A stretch of DNA of 64,000 nucleotides from Desulfococcaceae bacterium HSG9 (lineage in GTDB: Bacteria > Desulfobacterota > Desulfobacteria > Desulfobacterales > JAUCGF01). A model generated the notes under the pieces. That model was not told the origin of the DNA. It saw only the letters and a program-made list of their open reading frames with translations, and did not search any database. The stretch's first letter is position 1; the number at the start of each line of letters is the position of its first letter. This document shows, piece by piece, positions 1-7,875 of the stretch. A program made the translations under genes and the position numbers. The stretch spans positions 1 through 64,000 of the forward strand of contig JAUCGF010000084.1 in NCBI GenBank assembly GCA_030378005.1, in the 5' to 3' direction.

Positions 1-165
1 GATACTTTGGACACTGGAAACTGTTCTTCAATAAACACGCTATCGCTAACCCGACCTACTAAGTTTATGATTACAAACACCGAAAAATGAAGAATACCAC
101 AAAAAAGGATAATTGATGAATGATCGCGTGTTTATTGAAGAACAGTTTCCAGTGTCCAAAGTATC
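1..165. repeat. Perfect 40-bp inverted repeat at the window edge
   Basis: Bases 1-40 are the exact reverse complement of bases 126-165, with an 85-base spacer. The right arm is codons 4-17 of the methyltransferase gene that starts at 116; the left arm is an antisense copy of it. Pairing breaks at 41/125. It may extend left of base 1, which cannot be seen. Either it is a real structure, which in RNA would place the ribosome binding site in the loop, or it is a fold-back assembly artefact at a contig end. Confidence 0.97.
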
Positions 166-3049
166 AAAGGAAAGCTATAAAGAGCGCAAGGCCGGTGCCA
201 GCCAAACATTAACCGGCCTTGGGAAATGGTGGGGACGCAAGCCTTTAATTTTAATCAGAGCATCCATTATCGGCATGTTGATGCCCGCGTCCGGCAATCC
301 TGTGAAAGATCGTGATATTTTTTTAAAGATACTCACCATGGACAATAACGGGTTATGGCAGCGCCGCACAAAGTCGGTGCCGGCAGCCGTGATTCAGGAA
401 AATCTTTCTAAAAACGAATGGAACGAGATCGCCCTTGATAAACAAGGAAATTTGAAACGCAGGTGGGCAACGGGATTAAGCAAACAAGAGCAAAAACGCA
501 TTATCCGCAAGGTGTTTGAACGCCTGTCGTATGACGCCAAACTGGTCTATTGTCTCAGACCGGAACAGATTCAAGGGCCGGATAAAGCCGCCTGGAAAGA
601 GATCAATGCCCATCTTGGAACCGATGCTCAAAACCTGCAAGAATTAGTCGCTGAACTGGGCAAAAGAAGATTCGGCCATGTTCCCAAAGTGGGCGATTGT
701 TTCTGCGGCGGCGGTTCCATCCCCTTTGAAGCGGCCAGGCTGGGTTGTGAAGCGTTCGGCTCCGACCTGAATCCCGTGGCCGCCATGCTCACATGGGCAT
801 CCATCCACTTAATCGGCGGCGGGGAGAAAGTTCAGCAAGAAGTGATGCAGGCCCAAAAAAAAGCCTATTTGGCCGCGGATAAACAGATTACCGCATGGGG
901 CATCGAACACAATGCCAAAGGATGGCGCGCGGATGCCTATTTATACTGTGTTGAAGCCCGATGCCCGGCAACCGGTTTGATGCTTCCCCTTGCGCCTTCC
1001 TGGGTGATCAGCGAAAAATATAAGGTGTGCGCGGTGCTGAAACGCAATGATACTATCAAAGGGTACGATATTGAAATCGTTGTCGGTGCCGACAACGATG
1101 TGATGGCAAAAGCAAAACTGGGAACCGTTCGCAATAATCGCATGGTCTGCCCGGAAACAGGCGAAGAGTTTTCCATTTCAGGGATTCGCGGAGATCGCAA
1201 AATGAAAGGCAAAGCCGTGTATGGTTTGCGGCTGTGGGATAAGCACGATCTGGTGCCAAGACCGGATGATGTTTTCCAGGAACGGTTGTATTGTGTCCGA
1301 TGGGTGGAAACCTATTATGAAGAAAACAGGCAAGCAGCATCCGTTCAAAAAACGAGGCGGCATTATTGTTCAGTAACTGATGGTGATTTAAAGCGTGAAA
1401 ACCAAGTGCTGGAACTGCTTCGAGCGAGATATGAAGATTGGCAGGAGAAAGGGTATATTCCGAGTCGAAAAATTGAACCTGGTGTCGAAACAACTCGGCT
1501 TCAAAGGGAACGTGGTTGGACGCACTGGTATCATTTGTTTAATCCTCGGCAGTTGTTGATGCATGGTGAAATTATGAATGACTACCTTCAGTTAAATCAA
1601 TTTAACAATAAAATAAAGATTGTAGCAACATGCTTGTCAGTTGGGGCAGGTATTGATTATCAAGCTAAATTATGTGGTCTAAATCCTCACAAATCTAAGG
1701 GCCCAGGTTCAACCCGAAATGTATTTTCTAATCAGGCTTTAAATACTGTGTACTCCTGTGGTTGCCGCTCAATGATGAATTTAAAAGAATTTTACCTCAC
1801 TAATTTTTCAACTTCCTTTGACCTAAAGATGTCGTTTGAAATTGTAGCAGACGCAAGAAGTATAAATATAAAAAATGATATATGGATAACAGACCCACCA
1901 TACGCCGATGCAATCAATTACCACGAATTAACCGATTTTTTTCTTTCATGGTATGAAAAACATATTCCTAAAGCCTTTCCAGACTGGTACACCGACACCA
2001 AAAAAGCCTTAGCGGTCAGAGGTTCCGGCGATGATTTCAAACGCTCAATGGTAGAAATATATGAAAACCTAACCAACTATATGCCGGATAACGGCCTGCA
2101 AATGGTTCAGTTCACCCATCAGGATTCATCAGTTTGGGCAGACCTTGCCATGATTTTATGGGCCGCCAATCTGAAAGTCACTGCCGCCTGGACAATTGCC
2201 ACTGAAACATCATCCGGTTTAAAAAAAGGCAATTATGTCCAAGGCACCGTTCTTTTGATATTGCGCAAACGCTTATCCGACCAAACCGCCTTTTTGGACG
2301 AAATTTATCCCGAAATCGAGGATGAAGTCCGCCTACAGCTTGACGCCATGATGGAATTGGATGACAAGGATGATCCCAATTTTGGGGATACGGATTTTCA
2401 ACTCGCCGCTTATGCCGCCGCGCTGAGGGTGTTGACTCAATACAGCGATATTGAAGGCCAGGATATCCGGCATGAACTTTTCCGGCAGCGTAACCCTGGT
2501 GAAAAAACCGCGTTTGAAAAGGTGATTGACCGCGCGGTTGAAATCGCTTCGGACCATTTGGTTCCCGCGGGGATTGGCAAACCGCATTGGAAAACCCTGT
2601 CCGCGCCGGAACGATTGTATCTCAAGGGGATTGAACTTGAAAAACATAAAGAAGCGCGCGCCGGCGCATTTCAGGAACTTGCCAAAGGTTTTGGGGTTCG
2701 TGATTATAAGCTTCTGTATGCACGCACCAAGGCCAATGCGGTGCGATTTAAAACCGGGTCTGAATTTAAAAAATCCCATTTAGGCGGTGCCGCTTTTTCA
2801 GGAACGTTGACCCGCAATATTCTGTTTGCCATCCATGAAAGCGTGCAATCCGAAGACGCGCGGCAAGGCCTGCATTGGTTTCACAATGAAGTTGATAATT
2901 ACTGGAACCAACGCAAGTTAATCATTGCAATTTTAAAATACCTGGCCGCTTCAATCCATATCCCCCACATGCCCCATTGGGAACAAGATGCGGATGCGGC
3001 GCTTCGGCTTGCCGGTGCGGTGGAGAATGATCATGGGGGGAGAGTGTGA
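116..3049 (+). CDS. DUF1156-family DNA methyltransferase (defence-associated)
   Basis: A 977-residue amino-methyltransferase that probably modifies adenine-N6 or cytosine-N4 in DNA. The N-terminus carries a DUF1156-type motif (KWWGRKPL, residues 37-44). The AdoMet-binding motif I is DCFCGGGSIPFEAARLG near residue 195, followed by SDLNPVA. The catalytic DPPY is near residue 592, followed by NYHELTDFF. The ATG at 116 is preferred over the TTG at 113 because AAGGA lies six bases before it. Family knowledge: DUF1156 methylases occur with PLD/SNF2 helicases and DUF499 ATPases in defence loci called Hma-like. The helicase is at 4434, but no ATPase is visible, so it may lie upstream of base 1. Bases 1561-1980 are strikingly AT-rich (34% GC by count, against 50-55% in sampled flanks), which suggests a swapped internal segment that includes DPPY. 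Confidence 0.9.
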   Translation: MNDRVFIEEQFPVSKVSKESYKERKAGASQTLTGLGKWWGRKPLILIRASIIGMLMPASGNPVKDRDIFLKILTMDNNGLWQRRTKSVPAAVIQENLSKNEWNEIALDKQGNLKRRWATGLSKQEQKRIIRKVFERLSYDAKLVYCLRPEQIQGPDKAAWKEINAHLGTDAQNLQELVAELGKRRFGHVPKVGDCFCGGGSIPFEAARLGCEAFGSDLNPVAAMLTWASIHLIGGGEKVQQEVMQAQKKAYLAADKQITAWGIEHNAKGWRADAYLYCVEARCPATGLMLPLAPSWVISEKYKVCAVLKRNDTIKGYDIEIVVGADNDVMAKAKLGTVRNNRMVCPETGEEFSISGIRGDRKMKGKAVYGLRLWDKHDLVPRPDDVFQERLYCVRWVETYYEENRQAASVQKTRRHYCSVTDGDLKRENQVLELLRARYEDWQEKGYIPSRKIEPGVETTRLQRERGWTHWYHLFNPRQLLMHGEIMNDYLQLNQFNNKIKIVATCLSVGAGIDYQAKLCGLNPHKSKGPGSTRNVFSNQALNTVYSCGCRSMMNLKEFYLTNFSTSFDLKMSFEIVADARSINIKNDIWITDPPYADAINYHELTDFFLSWYEKHIPKAFPDWYTDTKKALAVRGSGDDFKRSMVEIYENLTNYMPDNGLQMVQFTHQDSSVWADLAMILWAANLKVTAAWTIATETSSGLKKGNYVQGTVLLILRKRLSDQTAFLDEIYPEIEDEVRLQLDAMMELDDKDDPNFGDTDFQLAAYAAALRVLTQYSDIEGQDIRHELFRQRNPGEKTAFEKVIDRAVEIASDHLVPAGIGKPHWKTLSAPERLYLKGIELEKHKEARAGAFQELAKGFGVRDYKLLYARTKANAVRFKTGSEFKKSHLGGAAFSGTLTRNILFAIHESVQSEDARQGLHWFHNEVDNYWNQRKLIIAILKYLAASIHIPHMPHWEQDADAALRLAGAVENDHGGRV

Positions 3050-3073
3050 TAGATAAATTTGGATGAGCGTCAG

Positions 3074-3116
3074 AATAACTTCTCCATTAAGCTTTTCCCA
3101 TTTTGGAGAAGTTATT
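3074..3116. terminator. Stem-loop between convergent genes
   Basis: A 13-bp perfect stem (3074-3086 with 3104-3116) and a 17-base loop lie between the ends of the methyltransferase and the minus-strand nucleotidyltransferase-like gene. The position fits a bidirectional terminator. There is no long T tract, so it may instead only protect the 3' ends. Confidence 0.5.
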
Positions 3117-3137
3117 TCGGTTACGATCCTTATAAAC

Positions 3138-3692
3138 TCACTCATCCGTAAAGGATGCCAAAATTTTATTTGACATTAATTCAACTTGTTCTTTGATTTC
3201 AGGAATATCAGGCACACGCGCCGCTTTTATGGCATAAGTGATATCTCTTAGGCTTAAATTTGCTCTTGAAATGATGAACAGAGCATCCTTGATGTCAATG
3301 GGGTCATAACGCATCAACTTGCTTAAAAACAAATCGATATCAGCGAGACGGAATACTTTTAAATTCGACCAGGGGCCGTTTATCCGCTCACGCAGTTTTC
3401 GCCAGTCAGGACGAAGCACCACTTGGTCTTCAGTAAAAAAATGGGCGATATACAGCCCTTTGTCCGCCAACAGTTCATTAACTCGCTCAACAGCCTGCCA
3501 GAAATCACCTTTTTCCAGAAGTGCTTCGGCCTGGCCCGTGTGTAAAACCACATCGACATCCCGGCTTAAGGCAAATTCCAGAGGGGGCTTGTCAAAGCCA
3601 AGCAGGAGTGCAGCGCGGCCGTATAAAACAATTTCAGCAGGTGATTTCAACAGGCTGTCCAGCAGATTCAGTATTTCCATTGCGTTACTCAT
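3138..3692 (-). CDS. Nucleotidyltransferase-fold protein (DUF6036/AbiEii-like)
   Basis: A 184-residue protein that begins like a minimal nucleotidyltransferase: a helix, then LYGRAALLLGF (residues 23-33) and RDVDVVL (44-50). These match the G[GS]xAL and DxD core of DUF6036/AbiEii-type proteins, except that the usual second G/S of the first motif is Arg here. That may weaken nucleotide binding. The start at 3692 is chosen because its ATG overlaps the upstream stop in an ATGA, the sign of translational coupling; the reading frame is open further upstream. Family knowledge: such proteins are often toxins or antitoxin-like parts of two-gene modules. With the upstream partner it forms an opposite-strand insert inside a defence block, so a toxin-antitoxin or accessory defence role is inferred, not shown. 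Confidence 0.75.
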   Translation of the reverse strand: MSNAMEILNLLDSLLKSPAEIVLYGRAALLLGFDKPPLEFALSRDVDVVLHTGQAEALLEKGDFWQAVERVNELLADKGLYIAHFFTEDQVVLRPDWRKLRERINGPWSNLKVFRLADIDLFLSKLMRYDPIDIKDALFIISRANLSLRDITYAIKAARVPDIPEIKEQVELMSNKILASFTDE

Positions 3693-4243
3693 GATGCCAG
3701 CACCCATTCGGAAACATTGCATCTTCCGTTTTTCATTTTAGGTTCAGCCAGTCTCGTCCAGTGTAATAACGGTTCTGTAAGCGCTTTTTCATTTTGATAT
3801 TGATTGTAGATAGCGCGCCATGTCGGATGTTCCGGCGCGACTTTCAGAGCCTGTTTGGATAGCTCGGCCAAAATCGGTTCCACACGCTCCCGTTCGGCGA
3901 TGAGCAGTAATTTGGTTAAGTCCGCCTTTTCGCGTGAAATTATCTGACAGGCAAGTCTGAGAATCTGCGGATAGTCCGCACATTGCAGCATGGATAATCC
4001 AACTGTCAGTTCCTCATCAGAGAAAAGTTCTTTATCCGGTAAAATCAATTCAGAAATATCCTGCCCGGGGCGTACAATCACTTGAAATCCCCGCTTGTTC
4101 GCTACTGCGACCAACCATTCTTCAACAGATTCTGCGCCGTCAACAGGGTATAGCACGGTAAGACGCCGTAGTTTGAATCTTAAAGGCGAAATATGACAGG
4201 TTTTTCCCAGTCGTTTCGCCAAAGTATGTTTTTGTTTGAACAT
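3689..4243 (-). CDS. Unrecognised partner of the nucleotidyltransferase-like gene
   Basis: A 184-residue protein that I do not recognise. It is basic at the N-terminus (KRLGKT, FKLRRL), then has an alpha/beta stretch around VEEWLVAVANKRGFQVIVRPG, then a mostly helical C-terminal half. No signal peptide or membrane segment is visible. The ATG at 4243 is preferred over the TTG at 4252 because AGGAGA (complement of 4253-4258) sits nine bases before it. Its stop overlaps the next start by four bases, so the two proteins are probably made together and may act as a pair. DNA-binding regulator or antitoxin is possible but unsupported by a motif. Confidence 0.7.
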   Translation of the reverse strand: MFKQKHTLAKRLGKTCHISPLRFKLRRLTVLYPVDGAESVEEWLVAVANKRGFQVIVRPGQDISELILPDKELFSDEELTVGLSMLQCADYPQILRLACQIISREKADLTKLLLIAERERVEPILAELSKQALKVAPEHPTWRAIYNQYQNEKALTEPLLHWTRLAEPKMKNGRCNVSEWVLAS

Positions 4244-4370
4244 ATTAACCAATCTCCTGATTTTTCACGGTAAGGCAATATTCAGTTCTGCTTACATGAT
4301 ATTAATCTTGATATAAAACATAAACATATTATATTCAACTTAATTAAACCAATAAATTTTCAGAAGAGGA

Positions 4371-4390
4371 ATGCAAACTTTAGTTTGCAT
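4371..4390. repeat. Palindrome upstream of the helicase gene
   Basis: ATGCAAACT and AGTTTGCAT flank a two-base centre, in the divergent spacer between the partner gene and the helicase. The core TGCAAACTT-AGTTTGC is shared with the longer palindrome at 7822-7875. It is therefore better read as a member of a dispersed palindrome family than as an operator, although its position in a divergent promoter region leaves the second option open. Confidence 0.7.
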
Positions 4391-4433
4391 CACCGCATCG
4401 TAAAGAGTAAGATATTAATTATAGGGAATAACC

Positions 4434-7145
4434 ATGATCAAACGGTTTTCATCGCGCCGTTCAAAACCGAATACATTCTTTATCGATAACTGTTTGAACG
4501 GCGCGGTAGCTTACGACCGCATTGCCGGCTATTTTCGATCATCCATGCTCGAAATTGCGGGTGAAAAAATTGAAGCCATGAACGGCAAGGTAAGAGTTGT
4601 ATGCAACTCCGACATAGATGTTCGTGATGTTGAAACCGCTAAAGCGGCGCGGCAGGCGCTTCGCAAATCATGGTGTGCCGGCAACCCCGAACAATTGGGT
4701 GAATTGTCCAAAGGCCGTTTTTTGCGGCTGCACCGCTTTATCACTGAGGGAAAGCTTGAAATCCGCGTGCTTCCTGATGAAGCCTTTGGTTTGATTCACG
4801 GCAAAACCGGGGTGATCACATACAAAGATGGCCGCCAAACCTGTTTTATGGGAAGCGCCAATGAGAGTTTTTCATCATGGCAATTGAATTACGAACTGAT
4901 TTGGGAGGACAATTCCGCAAGTGCGATACAATGGGTACAGGATGAATTTGATGCGCTCTGGTTTCATCACCTCGCCACTCCGTTAAGTGATTTTGTTGTA
5001 TGCGACATTAAACGCCTGGCCTGTCGAAGCGAAATCACCATTGATGATTGGAAACAGGACTCCGTGCAGACGCCCGCATCGGGTATCATCGAAACGCCTG
5101 TTTTTCGGAGAGAATACGGACTTTGGCCGCACCAGAAATATTTCATCAAACTTGCTTACGATGCGCATTTGAATGGCAGTGCAAGATTTATCTTAGCCGA
5201 TCAGGTCGGTTTGGGCAAAACCGTTCAACTCGCACTCAGCGCCATGTTGATGGCGCTCCATGGCCAAAAACCCGTATTGGTTATCGCTCCCAAAACCCTG
5301 CTGCCTCAATGGCAGGAGGAACTGTTTAATCTGTTGGGAATTCCTTCGGCGGTATGGAACGGCAACGACTGGATCGACGAACAAGGCATTGTGCATCCTT
5401 CCAGAGATGTCGCTTCCATCCGCAAATGCCCCCGCAAAATCGGCCTGATTTCCCAAGGCTTGATCACATCCGGCTCTGCAAGCATCGAACATTTAAAAAC
5501 ATTAACGTATGAATGTATTATAGTTGATGAGGCGCACCGTGCAAGGCGCAAAAAAATCAACGCGCAAAGCATGTTTCAAAAAGCCGAACCCAATAACCTG
5601 ATGCGGTTTTTATTGGAAATGAGTCCCCTGACTGAAAGTATGCTGTTGGCAACCGCGACGCCGGTTCAGATTCATCTGATTGAAGCGTGGGACCTTTTGA
5701 ATATTCTGGCGCAAGGCAATGACATGGTTATGGGCGCCAAGTGGTCGGAATGGCGTAAACCGGACCGCGCGCTATCCGTGGTTACCGGTGAAACCGCAAT
5801 CCCGGATGAACCGGGTGAAGCATGGCGATGGATACGCAACCCAATGCCGCCGGCATCCGAAGGTGTCGTTTTTAAAAATCTCAGAAGAACCTTAGGCCTG
5901 AAAAACAACGACCGTATTGCCAGCGGGGACAGCCTGGATTATTTAAGACCTCCTGAAATCACCCGTCTGAAAAGCATCATTCCAGATTTTGGGCGTAAAC
6001 ATAGCGTGTTTATCAGACACATTGTCAGAAGAACACGCGATTTTCTTGAAAACACAGTTGATCCTTCAACCGGTGAACCCTATCTCAAACCTGTCAAAGT
6101 CGTTTTATTTGGTGAAAGCCCCGCTGATTCCCTTGCATTGCCGCTCTATTTGCAAGATGCTTACGAAGCGGCCGAACAGTTTTGCAAACTGCTCGGTCAA
6201 AGAGCGCAAGGTGCCGGATTTCTAAAAACGCTGCTATTGAGAAGAATCGGCAGCACGATTTATGCGGGACGCCGCACAACGGAAAAGATGTTAAATCAAT
6301 GGGGCGATGCTGCCGCAAGCGTGCAAAGCTCATTTTTTGAAGAGGAAGATGATAGGATTGTGAACAATGTAGCCAAAACCGGCATGAAGGTTTTGACCGC
6401 GGTTGAACGTGTGGCACTGCAACGCTGTCTCAAAGCGCTTGAAAACAATCAGGAAAGCGATCCCAAATATATGAAAGTGATTGAATACCTGATTCAAAAA
6501 AATTGGATTGAAAGAGGCTGCATCATCTTTTCACAATACTTCGATTCTATCAAACATTTGGCCGATCAGCTTTCTATGGACATGCCGGATGAACCGGTCG
6601 GCGTGTATGCGGGAGGTGCCAATTCAGGCATTATAACGGCGGGGCAATATCAAAAAATATCCAGGGACATTCTTAAACGCAAAGTAGGCAAGGGAAAAAT
6701 ACGAATTCTCCTTGGCACCGAAGCGGCCAGCGAAGGCTTGAACCTTCAAAAACTGGGTGCGCTGATCAATCTGGATTTGCCGTGGAATCCCACTCGTCTT
6801 GAACAGCGCAAAGGGCGAATACAGCGTATCGGCCAGTTGCATGATGAAGTGTATGTTTATAACATGCGCTATCAGGGTTCAGTGGAAGACCGGGTGCATG
6901 AATTGCTATCCGGCCGCCTTGAGGATATTCATGCCCTTTTCGGCCAAATTCCGGATGTGTTGGAGGATGTCTGGATAGAAATAGCCATTGGTAAAATTGA
7001 AAATGCAAAAAAATTGATCGATTCGGTTAAACCCGATAATCCCTTTGATGAAAGATATAACCGGATCAGCGCAATCGACTGGGAATCTTGCTCAAAGGTA
7101 TTGAATGCTGATGAAAAAATGAGGGTTTTGATGAATAAATGGTAA
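4434..7145 (+). CDS. PLD-nuclease / SNF2-type helicase (defence-associated)
   Basis: A 903-residue two-part protein. Residues 1-180 form a phospholipase-D-like domain with one HxK motif (IHGKTGVI near residue 121) followed by MGSANES, as found on defence helicases. The superfamily 2 motor follows: motif I ADQVGLGKT (about 255-263), motif II VDEAHRA (near 364), motif III LLATATP, and in the C-terminal lobe GTEAASEGLN and EQRKGRIQRIGQ (near 790). All key helicase residues are present, so it should be an active DNA translocase. It probably works with the DUF1156 methylase as a modification-guided defence pair. The 4253-4433 spacer is AT-rich and holds a palindrome. AGGGA is the only weak ribosome-binding candidate before the ATG. 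Confidence 0.9.
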   Translation: MIKRFSSRRSKPNTFFIDNCLNGAVAYDRIAGYFRSSMLEIAGEKIEAMNGKVRVVCNSDIDVRDVETAKAARQALRKSWCAGNPEQLGELSKGRFLRLHRFITEGKLEIRVLPDEAFGLIHGKTGVITYKDGRQTCFMGSANESFSSWQLNYELIWEDNSASAIQWVQDEFDALWFHHLATPLSDFVVCDIKRLACRSEITIDDWKQDSVQTPASGIIETPVFRREYGLWPHQKYFIKLAYDAHLNGSARFILADQVGLGKTVQLALSAMLMALHGQKPVLVIAPKTLLPQWQEELFNLLGIPSAVWNGNDWIDEQGIVHPSRDVASIRKCPRKIGLISQGLITSGSASIEHLKTLTYECIIVDEAHRARRKKINAQSMFQKAEPNNLMRFLLEMSPLTESMLLATATPVQIHLIEAWDLLNILAQGNDMVMGAKWSEWRKPDRALSVVTGETAIPDEPGEAWRWIRNPMPPASEGVVFKNLRRTLGLKNNDRIASGDSLDYLRPPEITRLKSIIPDFGRKHSVFIRHIVRRTRDFLENTVDPSTGEPYLKPVKVVLFGESPADSLALPLYLQDAYEAAEQFCKLLGQRAQGAGFLKTLLLRRIGSTIYAGRRTTEKMLNQWGDAAASVQSSFFEEEDDRIVNNVAKTGMKVLTAVERVALQRCLKALENNQESDPKYMKVIEYLIQKNWIERGCIIFSQYFDSIKHLADQLSMDMPDEPVGVYAGGANSGIITAGQYQKISRDILKRKVGKGKIRILLGTEAASEGLNLQKLGALINLDLPWNPTRLEQRKGRIQRIGQLHDEVYVYNMRYQGSVEDRVHELLSGRLEDIHALFGQIPDVLEDVWIEIAIGKIENAKKLIDSVKPDNPFDERYNRISAIDWESCSKVLNADEKMRVLMNKW

Positions 7146-7821: not shown

Positions 7822-7875
7822 GGAGTGCAAACTTCAGTTTGCCTTGTCAGTGACGCAAACTGAAGTTTGCACTCC
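7822..7875. repeat. 21-bp perfect inverted repeat between ECF genes
   Basis: Bases 7822-7842 and 7855-7875 are exact reverse complements around a 12-base loop. Each arm is itself near-palindromic (GCAAACTTCAGTTTGC). It lies between the genes for the T and S components and would form a strong hairpin in the operon transcript, where it could lower expression of the S component or protect the 3' end of the upstream message. Related palindromes occur at 4371, 16923 and 41955. Confidence 0.95.

Follow-up and report, generated by a model that had tools for sequence, protein, structure and literature searches.

The question raised by this locus is whether a DUF1156 methylase and a PLD/SNF2 helicase that are split by two opposite-strand genes represent a new variant of a defence system, or a known system that has taken up a guest. 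The window, i.e., the whole stretch of 64,000 nucleotides analyzed here, lies on contig C40 of a draft genome (6.6 Mb, 197 contigs), with its base 1 being base 1 of the contig. A first-pass annotation had read the region as an Hma-like defence core that lacks DUF499 and carries an insert that may be a toxin-antitoxin guard. The gene layout it described was borne out: two core genes on the plus strand enclose two insert genes on the minus strand (116–7145), and the insert consists of a DUF6036-type gene coupled to an unrecognised partner of 184 residues. Our main reading is that a complete Type-2 operon is split over the contigs C150 and C40, and that its methylase/helicase junction is filled by a nucleotidyltransferase module with a toxin-antitoxin role; to this statement as a whole we assign a probability of roughly 0.5. 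The features of the region are as follows:

1–59, no strand: contig end; 1–44 is an inverted duplicate of 122–165, and 38–59 corresponds to the right arm of a dispersed inverted-repeat element; C150 terminates in the left part of this element
116–3049, plus strand: DUF1156 anti-phage N6-adenine DNA methylase of Type-2 BR (ATG at 116, TTG at 113 also possible; NF042963, PADLOC DUF1156_MTase)
3057–4419, no strand: guest segment in the methylase/helicase junction, delimited by DNA similarity to G428:C985 and BuS5
3074–3116, no strand: perfect 13-bp inverted repeat with a 17-nt loop, in the gap where the methylase and nucleotidyltransferase genes converge
3138–3692, minus strand: DUF6036 nucleotidyltransferase, toxin candidate with a MenT/AbiEii-like fold (184 aa from ATG; PF19502, AF2 model, Foldseek)
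3689–4243, minus strand: partner without known family, antitoxin candidate (184 aa from ATG; a TTG at 4252 would give 187 aa)
4434–7145, plus strand: PLD/HKD-SNF2 helicase, nuclease effector of Type-2 BR (NF042964, PADLOC PLD_Helicase)

The core genes and the end of the contig

The methylase scores 1358 bits against NCBIfam NF042963 (DUF1156_antiphage, curated cut-off 1000) and the helicase 1231 bits against NF042964 (phospholipD_antiphage, curated cut-off 1100), both over nearly the full length. The N-terminal PLD domain of the helicase is matched by PLDc_2 at residues 46–176, and alignment with relatives reveals that the SAM-binding, DPPY (methylase), Walker A, DEAH, and HGK/GSxN motifs are all intact. 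Among the PADLOC models, the methylase reaches 965 bits for DUF1156_MTase versus 83 for HmaB, the helicase 788 bits for PLD_Helicase versus 112 for HmaA, and the DUF499 protein of C150, described below, 667 bits for DUF499 versus 177 for HmaC. Since the PADLOC set DUF1156_MTase / PLD_Helicase / DUF499 / DUF3780 fits far better than HmaA/B/C, membership in Hma is ruled out; the earlier view of a defence core stands, while its label as Hma-like was imprecise. The methylase and the helicase are, with little doubt, two core genes of the Type-2 DUF499-centred 'BREX-related' (BR) system (PMC12839542; NCBIfam NF042961–NF042964), for which annotated plasmids from several phyla show the standard order DUF499–DUF3780–DUF1156 methylase–PLD helicase. 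Broken Type-2 BR loci were encountered as well, on Sinorhizobium fredii pSF45436e (L053, helicase in two frames) and in Deinococcus sp. NW-56 (L054, methylase interrupted near transposase genes).

The absence of DUF499, which the first-pass annotation had noted, did not hold up: the window starts at a contig end, and both DUF499 and DUF3780 are found at the end of C150. Upstream of base 1, where a search for DUF499 had been suggested, there is no sequence, this being the first base of C40. The genome contains two DUF499 genes. One of them is found at the C150 end (L014), where DUF499 (1033 aa) is followed by an RHH antitoxin-like gene, a PIN toxin-like gene, and DUF3780, and the contig stops 77 bp later. 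The DUF499 protein aligns in full length to NF042962 with 815 bits (cut-off 1200) and has an Fn3-like domain; DUF3780, the last gene on the contig, reaches 155 bits for PF12635 and 150 bits for NF042961 (cut-off 200). With a full-length DUF499_antiphage-type gene in the same genome, a true absence is ruled out. The RHH-PIN (VapBC-like) pair between DUF499 and DUF3780 is located at G000:C150:45945-46601 (L014:9950-10602); together with the insert pair, this may give a single BR locus two different toxin-antitoxin-like modules embedded in it. A second DUF1156-type methylase (G000:C48:489-3380; L017, L111), with 243 bits to NF042963 and thus under the cut-off, and the second DUF499 gene (G000:C170:29339-32392; L015:5340-8393) perhaps represent another BR system.

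How, then, are the two contigs related? A dispersed inverted-repeat element (GTAGGTCGGGTTAGCGATAGCG...CGCTATCGCTAACCCGACCTAC) occurs at positions 38–59 of the window, at the C150 end and in L004–L008; copies of its arms are many, and it is found at broken contig ends. C150 ends inside this element. C40:1–44 is a 98% inverted copy of C40:122–165, from its sequence likely a fold-back artefact (37–44 bp) at the contig end, and past this artefact C40 opens with the complementary part of the same repeat family. When the two parts are overlaid on complete copies (L004–L008), only about 11 bp would be missing. Furthermore, a contig of the same genus (G428:C985) carries DUF499 (90% identical), DUF3780 (91%), a PIN pair, and the methylase (86%) in this order. 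Because gene complement, orientation, and synteny agree and the repeat halves are complementary, we infer that C150 (DUF499, VapBC-like RHH-PIN, DUF3780) and C40 (methylase, helicase) form one complete four-gene operon cut by assembly; since the repeat has many copies, we keep this join conditional. The proposed new variant without DUF499 would then be corrected to a complete, known system that was cut by an assembly repeat.

The methylase/helicase junction as a slot for guests

The same-genus contig G428:C985 remains similar up to 3056, 7 bp past the stop codon of the methylase, and the Desulfosarcina BuS5 plasmid locus is similar again from 4420 onwards, 14 bp before the helicase ATG; these two boundaries define the guest segment, which fills the junction precisely. 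For comparison, we examined 43 further loci, drawn from plasmids and from members of the same phylum and order as this genome, a sample that is not random. The junction is visible in 36 of them and holds a guest (gap >250 bp) in 17, several of which share their guest by descent, so that the distinct contents number about ten and the 17 cases do not count as independent events. The guests comprise a Schlafen AlbA_2 protein, DarT with a macro-domain DarG, VapBC, a lone MNT, a HepT-like remnant, the PADLOC candidates PDC-M04A/B and PDC-M28A/B/C, a GHKL-methyltransferase trio, and an AAA pair; more guests reside in the DUF3780/methylase junction of the surveyed loci. What is conserved is the slot, not its content. 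The recognised guests are all co-oriented with the operon, and the insert of the window is the sole reversed one. An apparent frame of 190 aa on the opposite strand of L048 was discounted, as the co-oriented HepT-like remnant is the likelier gene there. Four loci of relatives in the order (L094, L095, L096, and L103) encode DarT and a macro-domain DarG-like antitoxin between the Type-2 BR methylase and helicase; DarT is unmentioned in the main text of PMC12839542.

The gene pair of the window, which is uncatalogued, extends the set of modules known from this hot junction of Type-2 BR operons. The junction has the appearance of a site at which last-resort modules are exchanged, and is therefore useful for finding new toxin-antitoxin or abortive-infection genes.

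The orientation of the pair has consequences for transcription. Because it converges on the methylase and diverges from the helicase, it interrupts the operon, and a separate promoter is presumably required for the helicase, a point that consensus scans cannot show. The 13-bp inverted repeat is possibly a terminator shared by the methylase and nucleotidyltransferase genes; across the region, terminator-like matches reveal no excess over chance. Upstream of the helicase, the window contains a REP-like palindrome, TGCAAACTnnAGTTTGC, at 4371–4390, which recurs at 7825–7844 and 7853–7872 and has 78 forward and 83 reverse matches in the genome. As an operator of the pair, the perfect palindrome at 4371–4390 is ruled out by this core occurring about 80 times per strand genome-wide.

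The nucleotidyltransferase and its partner

The two insert genes are coupled by an ATGA overlap at 3689–3692, with the partner upstream and the nucleotidyltransferase downstream. The latter matches PF19502 (DUF6036) with E=5e-5, which falls right on the curated cut-off, and has no match in the plasmids or viral contigs searched. Its AF2 model, built from a seven-sequence alignment, has a mean pLDDT of 82, and in a Foldseek search of the PDB the top four matches are chains of the MenT1 toxin (best 8an5/8an4; E 1.7e-3 to 2e-2, probability 0.99–1.0, TM about 0.5), a likeness that, as modelled, is at fold level only. MenT1 relies on the catalytic residues T39, D41, K137, and D152, with D43 (PMC10435456). 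The nucleotidyltransferase has S43-x-D45-x-D47, K125, and then D133 or D136, i.e., the catalytic acids and the lysine are kept. G25 is followed by Arg, in contrast to the Ser, Gly, or Ala of relatives, and this counts against the best explanation. Model and residues support a nucleotidyltransferase fold and likely its chemistry, not toxicity.

The partner belongs to no Pfam, NCBIfam, PADLOC, or PHROGs family, and no match was found in the plasmids, viral contigs, or phages searched. Its single-sequence model (pLDDT 45) is unusable. Relatives are rare, with three in 389 genomes of the order: one in G543 and two short remnants in the same genus, including G428. The G543 relative matches the first 110 residues of the partner at 47%, in frame with an unrelated remainder; a supposed relative in G206 was dismissed, the match lying in a transketolase-like protein. 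A TumE toxin gene is found directly upstream of the G543 relative (L055:1037-2631, G543:C198), which counts for the best explanation. At 30 other DUF6036 loci in the order, BLAST detected no partner-like neighbour (one weak match, E=0.29, was not counted). The exact pair of partner and nucleotidyltransferase occurs in no other genome searched, so its association with BR rests on one locus. The first-pass annotation had named a pair lying mostly away from defence genes as a case against its reading; this applies in part, as all relatives of the partner are truncated and none adjoins a methylase-helicase pair.

At about even odds, we regard the pair as a MenAT/AbiE-like toxin-antitoxin candidate, either a backup effector or a passenger, as the best available reading. 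A toxin-antitoxin nature is plausible because the model is closest to MenT1, the catalytic residues are kept, and toxin-antitoxin modules occupy the same junction elsewhere. The insert proposed by the first-pass annotation stands as a two-gene module with a plausible toxin-antitoxin nature, while it is not a conserved part of the system.

The main rival holds that the pair is a selfish or passenger toxin-antitoxin-like unit in a permissive BR junction, with no functional link to the system. It is suggested by the presence of the pair at this locus only and on the opposite strand, by partner relatives sitting elsewhere in the order and the same genus, and by the dispersed repeats that abound in the genome; however, the junction strikingly often holds defence or toxin-antitoxin modules in relatives, many of them catalogued defence candidates. 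We consider this rival possible, yet short of probable.

Two further readings are both improbable. The roles could be reversed, with the partner as the toxin and the nucleotidyltransferase as the antitoxin by which it is modified, in the manner of HEPN-MNT (type VII) pairs. MNT and HepT-like genes do occur in the same junction at other loci, but the nucleotidyltransferase has the size and fold of DUF6036/MenT-like proteins rather than those of a minimal MNT of ~100 aa. The partner as a HEPN toxin was rejected: no HEPN model in Pfam, NCBIfam, or PADLOC fits it, and its sole Rx5H motif, a weak one, is N-terminal and not kept in relatives. Alternatively, the pair could be degraded or inactive, merely persisting in the junction, as the truncation of every other partner copy and the Gly-Arg in place of the usual Gly-Ser/Gly in the nucleotidyltransferase motif would suggest; against this, both frames of the window are intact and coupled, their base composition is like that of the neighbours, and the nucleotidyltransferase keeps its catalytic acids and lysine.

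Proposed working and comparison with known systems

As proposed for Type-2 BR (PMC12839542), the methylase would mark self DNA and the PLD helicase would destroy unmarked DNA. Recognition of the unmarked DNA would fall to the DUF499 ATPase and DUF3780. In the toxin-antitoxin reading of the insert, the nucleotidyltransferase would act as a MenT/AbiEii-type toxin, perhaps adding nucleotides to tRNA, and would be held off by the co-translated upstream partner. An infection or an anti-BR phage protein might stop the supply of antitoxin, upon which the toxin would halt growth as a second layer of defence. The order of the genes, with the partner upstream, agrees with that of MenAT1: among 21 menA1 homologues, 15 are found upstream of a menT-like gene (PMC10435456). 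The reversed pair lies outside the transcript of the operon, which counts against the best explanation. A tentative proposal, which we hold to be rather doubtful, is that the pair constitutes a new type of nucleotidyltransferase toxin-antitoxin system whose antitoxin family is undescribed, and that it acts as backup effector of Type-2 BR; if this were true, the reversed, separately transcribed layout would let the pair respond to a blocked core.

Compared with Type-2 BR (PMC12839542), the genome contains the complete set of four core genes, the methylase and the helicase are full-length equivalogs, and the helicase starts with PLD/HKD. The locus differs in that its genes lie on two contigs, an opposite-strand pair separates methylase and helicase, an RHH-PIN pair separates DUF499 and DUF3780, and both of the latter score under the NCBI cut-offs. 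Hma, or Type-1 BR (PMC8565338), shares a helicase, a methylase, and a DUF499-type ATPase, with weak matches to HmaA, HmaB, and HmaC, whereas here the PLD domain is located at the helicase N-terminus and DUF3780 is present. Like MenAT (PMC10435456, PMC11375011) and AbiE, the pair combines a nucleotidyltransferase fold closest to MenT1 and an S/T-x-D-x-D motif plus Lys with a candidate antitoxin gene upstream; unlike them, it shows 18–19% identity to MenT1, an Arg in the glycine motif, and a partner unrelated to any known antitoxin family, MenA and AbiEi included. An accessory module between the genes of a restriction-like system has a precedent in DarTG2 within a Type I RM system (PMC12255303), and one inside such a system in the embedded Hma candidates ('guilt by embedding'), as far as these are cited in PMC12988326. 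In contrast to the described modules, the guest here is on the opposite strand and absent from the PADLOC catalogue searched. Defence modules nested within others have been described before, and it is the pair of the window that is uncatalogued: the core represents a known system in ordinary and complete form, and the pair is a guest where guests are common.
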